Origin: an archaeon
Lineage (GTDB): Archaea; AGJL01; Methanococci; Methanococcales; Methanocaldococcaceae
Direction: 5' to 3'
Assembly: GCA_024278985.1 (NCBI GenBank)
Contig: JAJRSC010000026.1
Location: 1 to 44,690, forward strand
DNA: 44,690 nucleotides
Position 1 is the stretch's first letter, and each line of letters opens with the position of its first letter. Below, piece after piece: positions 18,228-21,454 of the stretch. The notes beneath the pieces were generated by a model. It saw only the letters and a program-made list of their open reading frames with translations, had not been told where the DNA came from and did no database searches. Both the position numbers and the translations under genes were made by a program.

Positions 18228-19517
18228 TCAACTATTTAGAACTTTTGTTTTCTTATATTCAATAATTTTTATACCACAATATAATCCAATAAATATAGAT
18301 ATCAATATTATCCAAAATTCTAATGATAAATTAAGAATTTCAAAATGTTTAAAATACTCCTCTAACCCAGATGTTACGATTAATACATGTGTTGCTTCTA
18401 AAGCATAGATTCCAAATATTCCAATCTCTAAAACTTCCATTGCTTCTCCTAAAGCAACCTGATATTTTGTATTTTGAGCTAATTGCTTAACAATTTCCCT
18501 TTCTAAATCTTCTGATATTGTTGTTAATAATCTTGTTAAACTTGTTGCCAACTCACTATTACTTTTTAAAAGATTATCAATTTCAGTTAATCTATATCTT
18601 ATCCTACTTATCTTTTTATCTGTATCTATTAACTCTAAAATTGTTTTTGTAAAATCATCAAAATCTGGAGGATAATTTTCATGAATTATATTAATTATTT
18701 CCTCCAAATAACCCAATACAATCTCAATAACTGAAAGTTCTTTATCTATACTACTTAACTCAGCTCTAATTTTATCAATCTCTTCAATATCCATTTTTTT
18801 TAATTTGTCACTAATATACTCTAATTTTGAGGATATATAAACTAATCTGAAAAATAAATCTCTTGAAACACCTGTTAAGCTTCTAATAAACGAATAGTAT
18901 CCTAAAAAATTTTCAAATTTTTCTGGTTTCTTTGTTGATATATATATCCCAAAATCTCCAAATATTATATCTCCATCACTAAGTTTTAAAATTTTCTTTA
19001 TACCTCCAATTATTTGAGTTAATTTGTGAAGTTCTTCATTATTAAAATTTTCTTCTGATATAACTCCAATATGTTTATATATTTTAAATCTTCCATATAA
19101 TATTTCTAATAAGTACCTCTGTGAGGATGAAATTAAAGGATACATTATATGGGATGATTTTAATATTAAATTAGGAATAATACATGAAAGTTTTTTTAAG
19201 CTACTACTTTCCAGCTCAACTGCATATATAACCCTTCCAAGATAATCAACAGAAATAAAAAAGCTAAGGTCTTCATCTAAAACATTTGAAGTAAATTGGA
19301 CATATGTCTCAGGTTCAAACTCAATAATATTTACAGCAGTTTTATATTCAAACACTTCAAATATACCTTTATCTCTTATATCTCCTTTACCTACAGAAAA
19401 ATACCTCTTTCTTTTACTTTGATATTCTTTAAGTGTAATTCTATCTATAAATTCATTCATGTAGTTTTTACCAAAAGGAATCCATTCAGTTAAAATAATT
19501 TTTGGATTCTTTAACAT
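18228..19517 (-). CDS. Unknown protein with long helical region and C-terminal membrane segments
   Basis: I do not recognise this 429-residue family. Residues ~1-215 look like a mixed alpha/beta domain (EFEPETYVQFTS, FFISVDYLGRVIYAVELE, DGDIIFGDFGIYIST). Residues ~225-360 are charged and heptad-rich, likely coiled coil (KLEYISDKLKKMDIEEIDKI and following). The end has a hydrophobic stretch near 365-385 and a clear membrane helix FWIILISIFIGLYCGIKII near 400-418. The large part should be cytoplasmic and membrane-tethered. It follows the NIL-ferredoxin gene by 18 bases and precedes the DUF2116 gene, all on the same strand, so it may be in the homocysteine operon or merely read through. Confidence 0.6.
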   Translation of the reverse strand: MLKNPKIILTEWIPFGKNYMNEFIDRITLKEYQSKRKRYFSVGKGDIRDKGIFEVFEYKTAVNIIEFEPETYVQFTSNVLDEDLSFFISVDYLGRVIYAVELESSSLKKLSCIIPNLILKSSHIMYPLISSSQRYLLEILYGRFKIYKHIGVISEENFNNEELHKLTQIIGGIKKILKLSDGDIIFGDFGIYISTKKPEKFENFLGYYSFIRSLTGVSRDLFFRLVYISSKLEYISDKLKKMDIEEIDKIRAELSSIDKELSVIEIVLGYLEEIINIIHENYPPDFDDFTKTILELIDTDKKISRIRYRLTEIDNLLKSNSELATSLTRLLTTISEDLEREIVKQLAQNTKYQVALGEAMEVLEIGIFGIYALEATHVLIVTSGLEEYFKHFEILNLSLEFWIILISIFIGLYCGIKIIEYKKTKVLNS

Positions 19518-19535: not shown

Positions 19536-19934
19536 TTATTCTAAAACTTTCAATGCTTTAAATGGGCATGCCTTAACACAGTTTTTACAACCAACACATT
19601 TATCTTTATCAAATTCTATACTATAATCTTCACTAACATATATAACATCAAATGGACACTGAGTTACACAACAACCACAATGAACACATCTTTCTTCATC
19701 TCTCTTTATAATGTCTTTTATCTCCTCTAATTCTCCATATTTTGATAAGTATTCTAAAGCTTTATTTACAACCTCTTCATCTCCAATAATTTCCAATATT
19801 AAAAATGCCTCCTGTGGTTCAACTTTTGCCTTTAATATATTAATTTTTACTCCAGTATTTAAAATTACATCTGCAATAACTGGCTTACTTATATACTTTG
19901 AATATGTCCAAAAATATATTCTTTTTTTTATCAT
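19536..19934 (-). CDS. NIL domain plus 2x[4Fe-4S] ferredoxin (homocysteine biosynthesis partner)
   Basis: This 132-residue protein has an N-terminal NIL-type domain of about 75 residues (KRIYFWTYSKYISKPVIADV onward) and a bacterial-type ferredoxin with two CxxCxxCxxxCP clusters (CVHCGCCVTQCP and CVGCKNCVKACP). Homologues in Methanosarcina (MA1822) work with a DUF39 protein (MA1821) to make homocysteine from aspartate semialdehyde and sulfide, supplying electrons or handling sulfur. The gene lies downstream of DUF39 and CBS genes and its ATG overlaps the CBS stop by four bases, which supports the same role here. Confidence 0.9.
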   Translation of the reverse strand: MIKKRIYFWTYSKYISKPVIADVILNTGVKINILKAKVEPQEAFLILEIIGDEEVVNKALEYLSKYGELEEIKDIIKRDEERCVHCGCCVTQCPFDVIYVSEDYSIEFDKDKCVGCKNCVKACPFKALKVLE

Positions 19935-20416
19935 TTTTCTCTCCCTATCAATCTTGATAAATCTTCAGATGTTACAATTCCTACGATTCTTCTATTTTTA
20001 TCAATTATTGGAATCCCTGATATGTCATATTTCTCCATTTTTTTAGCTATAATTTCAATAGGTTCGTCTTCATATGCAGTTATAACCTTTTTTGTCATTA
20101 TCTCATTAATATCTTTTTTACCTAAAGCAACAGCCTTGGCAATATCCCAAGATGTAACAATTCCTATTAAAATCCCATTTTCATCAACTATAGGGAGATA
20201 ATTTATATCATACTCAACCAAAATTTTTGAAGCCTTTTCTAAAGTAATATCTTTTCTTGCAGTTATAACAGGTGTGGTCATAATATCCTTAGCCAATATA
20301 ACTGGAGATTTCATTGGTTTAAATTCACCTTTTCCTATAGGACTTACTCTTTCAGTTAGTAAAAACTCTCCTCTTAAAATCCATTTTTTTAATTCTTCAG
20401 CAACTTCTCTGGACAT
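19931..20416 (-). CDS. CBS-domain pair, detached C-terminal half of DUF39-CBS protein
   Basis: This 161-residue protein has a short helical lead (SREVAEELKKWILRGEFLLTERV) and then two CBS domains (KDIMTTPVITARKDITLEKA near residue 43; NEIMTKKVITAYEDEPIEII near 104). In M. jannaschii MJ0100 such a pair is fused to DUF39 and, in published work as I recall it, binds S-adenosylmethionine and methylthioadenosine, so it probably senses methionine status. Here it is separate from DUF39 by one in-frame TAA. There is no ribosome binding site before ATG 20416, and the 10 sense codons between that stop and this ATG continue the same frame. Confidence 0.85.
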   Translation of the reverse strand: MSREVAEELKKWILRGEFLLTERVSPIGKGEFKPMKSPVILAKDIMTTPVITARKDITLEKASKILVEYDINYLPIVDENGILIGIVTSWDIAKAVALGKKDINEIMTKKVITAYEDEPIEIIAKKMEKYDISGIPIIDKNRRIVGIVTSEDLSRLIGREK

Positions 20417-20446
20417 TTTATAACTTGAAACTGAACCTGTTTTTAT

Positions 20447-21454
20447 TTATTTTAAGACTTTTTTATTATCAATTTCAACCTCTAAACAAATTTTTCCACT
20501 TCTTAATTCTTTATAGTTTGTTATTCCAACTACTGGTCTTTCTCTTCTTGGTATTCCATAGTCATAAATTTTTACTTCAATATCTTCATCTTTTATAGCA
20601 CATCTTTTAGCTATTTCCTCATTCAAAACAGGAATTGGCACACCAATACCAATATACAACGTAGGCCCATATTTTGGCATTGTTGCAGCTCTTACATATC
20701 TTGGATTCATCTTTTTTAAATCCCCTTTAACCATTAGAGTACCAAATGGAGGATTATGTTGGGTTCCCTCTCCTATTATAAAACCTTCTCCACCACCTAA
20801 GAAAATTTTAGTGCCTATACCAATGGTATTATAGCCTTTGGTTTTGGGATTATAATCATTTTGTAGAGGATTTAATTGTCCTGCTCCTGAAAAGTGTATA
20901 TTTCCATACTCTGGCCAAAGAATTCCCATATAGGTATAAATTTTTTCTTCTCTACTATTTGTAGCAGCAGGATATGCCTGATAACAGTTTCTTGGATTAA
21001 CCATTATTGCCTGATTAACATCATCTAATGTTATTTTAACATTAACCTCTTTTCTTGGATAACAGTCAGTAGTATATCCTTCAGCATATAACTCTATTTC
21101 TTTTCCTCTTACTAAGTCCTCAATAACATGAGCTCCTCCATATTCAATATCAATATCTGGGTCTTCATTTGGCTGAGCGGCTCCTATATAAGTATCTACT
21201 GCGGCCAATCCTCCGTATGCTTCCACATTATTTAAATATATATTGAGCATTTTTATTGGTGGGTCTGAATGACCAAAGTTTATAAATACTCCAGATGAAC
21301 ACATAGCTCCAAAGGTTCCTGTTGTAACAACATCAACATAATCAGCAGCCTTTTTAGCTCCTTCTTCTTCAACTATTTTAATCATTTCCTCAGCAGTAAC
21401 TACAACTGCCTCTCCTTTCTTAATTTTTTCATTAATTTCTTTTATAGTTTTCAT
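20447..21454 (-). CDS. DUF39 homocysteine biosynthesis protein, cut short by in-frame TAA
   Basis: This 335-residue COG1900/DUF39 enzyme corresponds to Methanosarcina MA1821 and M. jannaschii MJ0100, proposed L-aspartate-semialdehyde sulfurtransferase. Cys52 in GAMCSSG and the Cys of NPRNCYQAY near 154 are candidates for the sulfur-carrying residues. [19 protein letters not shown] near 220 is a family signature. The ribosome binding site GGAGAT stands four bases before ATG. The usual fusion partner, a CBS pair, follows in the same frame after one TAA (20449-20447), and the codons between read IKTGSVSSYK, like the normal linker. The catalytic domain looks complete, so activity may persist while regulation changes. 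Confidence 0.9.

Follow-up and report, generated by a model that had tools for sequence, protein, structure and literature searches.

An in-frame TAA in the DUF39-CBS gene of a Methanocaldococcus draft genome is most likely an assembly error

In the draft genome of a Methanocaldococcus, the gene for a DUF39 (HcyBio) enzyme with a C-terminal pair of CBS domains is interrupted by a single in-frame TAA. Most likely, this codon has arisen by an erroneous base substitution in a draft assembly of low quality, superimposed on an ordinary fused gene that is intact in the living organism. The gene is uninterrupted in all other genomes of the genus, and comparable stops are found in 28 other genes of the same draft, including essential single-copy genes, which points to base errors of the assembly. 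All positions given below refer to the window, i.e. the complete stretch of 44,690 nt that was analysed, unless a contig of the genome is named.

The interrupted gene and its relatives

The locus has the following features:

20449-20447, minus strand: TAA, codon 336 of the read-through frame
20447..21454, minus strand: DUF39/HcyBio (PF01837) open reading frame of 335 aa, with its ATG at 21454; the HcyBio domain is incomplete at its C-terminus
20417..20446, minus strand: ten sense codons (IKTGSVSSYK) after the TAA, i.e. the second half of a predicted beta strand and the start of the conserved HcyBio C-terminal piece
20357..20446, minus strand: HcyBio C-terminal tail, residues 337-366, with a predicted helix at 345-360; Pfam positions 318-349, matched only with read-through
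19931..20416, minus strand: CBS open reading frame of 161 aa, consisting of the remaining DUF39 tail and the CBS (Bateman) pair, in the frame of the DUF39 open reading frame and with TGA at 19933-19931
19536..19934, minus strand: gene for a NIL and 4Fe-4S ferredoxin protein (PF09383 and Fer4), a partner of the MA1822/MJ0099 type

The original prediction was that one fused gene has been cut by a single nonsense codon, and that the locus does not hold two independent genes. The sequence bears this out. The TAA is present, and the frame stays open behind it through the ten sense codons to the ATG at 20416, so the CBS pair is encoded in frame directly downstream of the DUF39 part, with the TAA between the two in the assembly. 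When the TAA is taken as any residue, the read-through product comprises 507 aa. This fits the length of the fused gene in the genus, because all 13 other genomes contain it without interruption and match over 506-507 residues. At its 3' end, the fused gene overlaps the NIL/ferredoxin gene (TGA with ATG), as it also does in those genus relatives that were examined for it. Immediately behind the NIL/ferredoxin gene lies a gene for a protein of 429 aa (18228-19517, minus strand), which has no match in Pfam or NCBIfam. An Rfam scan of the window yielded two tRNAs and nothing else.

The gene is also uninterrupted in 22 genomes of the same order, one of which (G024) has two full-length DUF39-CBS genes (C1:757977-759494 and 1834809-1836326), both about 73% identical to the window gene. 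One further draft of that order (G030) gave only weak matches. Relatives with DUF39 and CBS in two clearly separate genes, without similarity in the linker, would have spoken against a fused ancestor; this arrangement was found neither in the relatives examined from the genus and the order nor in any of 47 further, more distant DUF39 loci. At these loci, archaeal DUF39 is fused to CBS, and bacterial DUF39 occurs without CBS. For one distant archaeal homologue of the fused gene (G042:C1:59918-61390, 58% identity), a single TGA is reported inside the match.

Judged by its sequence, the fused gene is the Methanocaldococcus L-aspartate-semialdehyde sulfurtransferase of the MJ0100/MA1821 type (COG1900a, DUF39-CBS; PMC5764234). 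It shares the domain order, the length, the conserved cysteines and the NIL and ferredoxin operon partner with MA1821 of M. acetivorans and MJ0100 of M. jannaschii, and it differs from both in that a single TAA occupies codon 336, with 30 residues of HcyBio still to follow. The cysteines, C52 of the MCSSG motif and C131 of the TDCYPR motif, hardly vary across the alignment; their counterparts in MA1821 are Cys54 and Cys131, the roles of which have been described (PMC12068725). The solved structures nearest to the CBS pair are those of the MJ0100 CBS pair (3kpc and 3kpb), and the gene for the NIL/ferredoxin partner is adjacent (19934-19536). The same genome contains a second, distant gene of the DUF39 family (C7:8746-9474, 32% identity), presumably of the methanogenesis marker 16 or ComF type.

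Position of the stop within the catalytic domain

The stop had been thought to separate the enzyme from its sensor, and the codons behind it to be a normal linker. Their homology to the relatives was confirmed, and KTGSVSSYK is identical in several Methanocaldococcus genomes. The assignment as a linker did not hold, because these codons encode the end of HcyBio (Pfam positions 318-349). In the open reading frame as given, the Pfam match covers profile positions 1-317 of 349 (438.5 bits), whereas with read-through it is complete (positions 1-349, 472 bits) and extends to residue 366. In the predicted structure of the read-through product (mean pLDDT 87), residue 336 lies inside a strand formed by residues 331-341, which is followed by a confidently predicted helix at 345-360 (pLDDT 93-98). 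The stop therefore does not fall at a domain boundary; it cuts the predicted strand, with the conserved helix downstream of it.

The same tail of strand and helix is present in the CBS-less bacterial homologues, and S344, L355 and F364 are invariant in an alignment of 23 sequences. Both the alignment and the predicted structure thus place the strand and helix after residue 336 in the catalytic domain, rather than in a linker to CBS. CBS-less bacterial DUF39 proteins, e.g. of Desulfovibrio and Omnitrophota, have a catalytic domain that includes the tail, and they end after it, at 382-404 aa. The 335-aa open reading frame of the window, in contrast, ends before the tail and therefore looks unlike an enzyme that naturally stands alone. 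If the stop were real, its position in the middle of a strand and the loss of the conserved helix would lead to a truncated catalytic domain and not to a clean enzyme with a free sensor; from the domain data, the 335-aa piece is predicted to be unstable or inactive.

In-frame stops across the draft

The genome of the window, placed in Methanocaldococcus by its named relatives, comprises 1.1 Mb in 30 contigs and is 86% complete. We compared 767 kb of it (about 70% of the genome) with the proteins of a sister genome, G002, its closest relative. A stop was counted only in a genuine gene and at a distance of at least 15 residues from both ends of the match; some apparent stops, located in four antisense or spurious query frames, were discarded manually. 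This yielded 29 in-frame stops (18 TAA, 7 TAG and 4 TGA), each in a different gene and distributed over 18 contigs, together with 8 frameshift candidates. The two sister genomes G002 (97% compared) and G010 (60% compared) served as controls for the same procedure, and neither had an in-frame stop in a genuine gene: stops occurred in two spurious open reading frames of G002 and in one of G010.

The interrupted genes include those for IleRS, PurA, PurD, GatA, IlvD, a LeuA-type synthase, uS2 and uL5. Four of them have the following positions:

C4:9667-10317: uS2, interrupted
C27:988-1539: uL5, interrupted
C1:12348-15410: IleRS, interrupted
C20:11626-12654: PurA, interrupted

The genes for uS2 and uL5 are whole in all 13 other genomes of the genus and broken only here, that for uL5 twice. 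For IleRS and PurA, no second intact copy was found. Free-living cells cannot lose uS2, uL5, IleRS or PurA, so these stops must either be absent from the cells or be read through.

As a rule, there is one stop per gene. The local conservation at the stops equals the background (0.76 versus 0.72, p=0.34), i.e. the stops have no bias towards variable regions. The residues that they replace are unevenly distributed. Glu is the source residue in 13 of the 29 cases, or 17 if either sister is counted, compared with an expectation of 15% (p=1e-4), and only one case is derived from Leu, Tyr, Cys or Trp, for which 45% would be expected. The source codons are mostly those for Glu and Gly, and the changes are G>T-like, a direction documented for sequencing libraries that were oxidatively damaged ex vivo (PMC12390751). 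Artefacts of DNA damage (G>T) or of low-quality assemblies likewise appear as scattered in-frame stops, mostly at Glu and Gly codons and in essential genes as well. Damage is usually demonstrated by strand asymmetry on the reads (PMC12390751), whereas the evidence here comes from the assembled sequence.

With the two sisters used for polarisation, the numbers of unique amino-acid changes are similar (9453 here, 8550 and 9188 in the sisters), whereas conserved sites show a modest excess of radical missense changes (123 versus 96 and 94). G>T missense changes in conserved neighbourhoods are mildly raised (92 versus 61 and 81). Both excesses are compatible with errors near 1e-3, but are no proof of them. 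If errors are assumed to be uniform, their rate works out at about 9e-4 per base, equivalent to about 40 wrong bases in the window. Nothing points to a true mutator phenotype through lost 8-oxoguanine repair, as an Ogg-type glycosylase is present and intact (C13:21900-22517). The corresponding family, NF002305, was undetected in four genomes of the genus (G004, G008, G009 and G013), had a weak match in G002 and is present in the others.

Alternative explanations and consequences

In view of these data, we infer that sequencing, damage or assembly error, rather than mutation in the cells, has generated the TAA. Counting it, at least 29 false in-frame stops would then be present in the roughly 70% of the genome that was compared. 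In the living cell, one intact gene would encode a DUF39/HcyBio domain with a CBS pair, i.e. the catalytic subunit of the L-aspartate semialdehyde sulfurtransferase, and it would probably be co-transcribed with the adjoining gene for the NIL/ferredoxin partner.

Several observations count against an error. The codon at the position of the stop is ACN, GCT, GAG, TCT, AGT or TGC in the relatives; ACN is the most common in the genus, GCT is found in the closest relative (G002) and GAG in G010. A single substitution cannot lead to TAA from GCT or ACN, and the only one-step origin would be GAA, a state that is suggested by the GAG of G010. In addition, the codon two positions before the TAA differs from GAA in the relatives: codon 334 (20453-20455) is TTA and specifies Leu, in contrast to the Glu of nearly all relatives and the Asp or Gln of a few. 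It is a second unusual change in this A-rich stretch. The rise in G>T missense changes in conserved neighbourhoods, too, is only mild.

An alternative is a genuine recent nonsense mutation, which would leave a truncated, probably inactive DUF39 protein and a CBS fragment in low amounts, if any, with methionine auxotrophy or loss of regulation as the result. The sequence as given contains the stop, the change from GAA to TAA is one step, and the Glu-to-Leu exchange at residue 334 means that the stretch differs from the relatives by more than one base. The conserved state of the codons behind the stop would require the change to be recent. We nevertheless consider such a mutation, also as a local event in a genome with many errors, unlikely, because 28 other stops of this kind exist, several of them in genes that no cell can lose, and because the operon partner is intact. 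Furthermore, the part behind the stop has not evolved relatively faster than on comparable branches: from branch lengths on a fixed tree, the ratio of amino-acid evolution after versus before the stop position is 4.2 here, 5.0 for G002 and 2.9 for G010. Relaxed selection after the stop was therefore rejected, since this part is also the faster one on the two comparable long branches and the branch of the window gene is unexceptional.

A free SAM-sensing subunit, stop readthrough or lost feedback had been proposed as outcomes, and none of them gained support from the analysis, given the comparable stops in other genes, essential ones included. Two working polypeptides, with the DUF39 enzyme as one and a CBS subunit that senses SAM and is produced by reinitiation at the ATG at 20416 as the other, might be suggested by the presence of this in-frame ATG 30 nt behind the stop and by the preserved sequence of the CBS part. 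The arrangement is extremely improbable. The ATG had been described as devoid of a ribosome binding site, which is a fair description: the only Shine-Dalgarno-like match upstream of it is AGGT at a distance of 16 nt, compared with AGGTGA at 4 nt for sua5 and GGAG at 4 nt for the DUF39 gene. The cut would also interrupt a beta strand of the catalytic domain and remove a helix that is found in the CBS-less bacterial homologues, and no relative is organised in this way. Readthrough of a real stop, as part of frequent UAA, UAG and UGA readthrough in this archaeon, would account for the many essential genes that are interrupted with both sides conserved, and the replaced residues are mostly hydrophilic. 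It has very little probability, however, because all three stop codons are involved, the 8 frameshift candidates accompany the stops, and the usual stops still terminate the genes, with unremarkable frequencies (TAA/TGA/TAG 306/99/40, versus 273/130/44 in the sister). No suppressor tRNA for UAA or UAG was detected in about 70% of the genome, and the sole stop-reading tRNA was the expected tRNA-Sec. Even less can be said for real stops that this Methanocaldococcus tolerates or decodes by general readthrough of UAA, UAG and UGA in about 4% of its genes, DUF39-CBS included.

An assembly error thus remains the best explanation of the TAA, and the underlying gene is that of a known enzyme. The draft appears to contain about one base error per thousand, and single-base oddities in it, e.g. 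broken genes, odd codons or lost motifs, should be regarded as suspect until the reads have been checked. For the enzyme family, the finding that the strand and helix are predicted to be part of the catalytic domain may aid the design of constructs.
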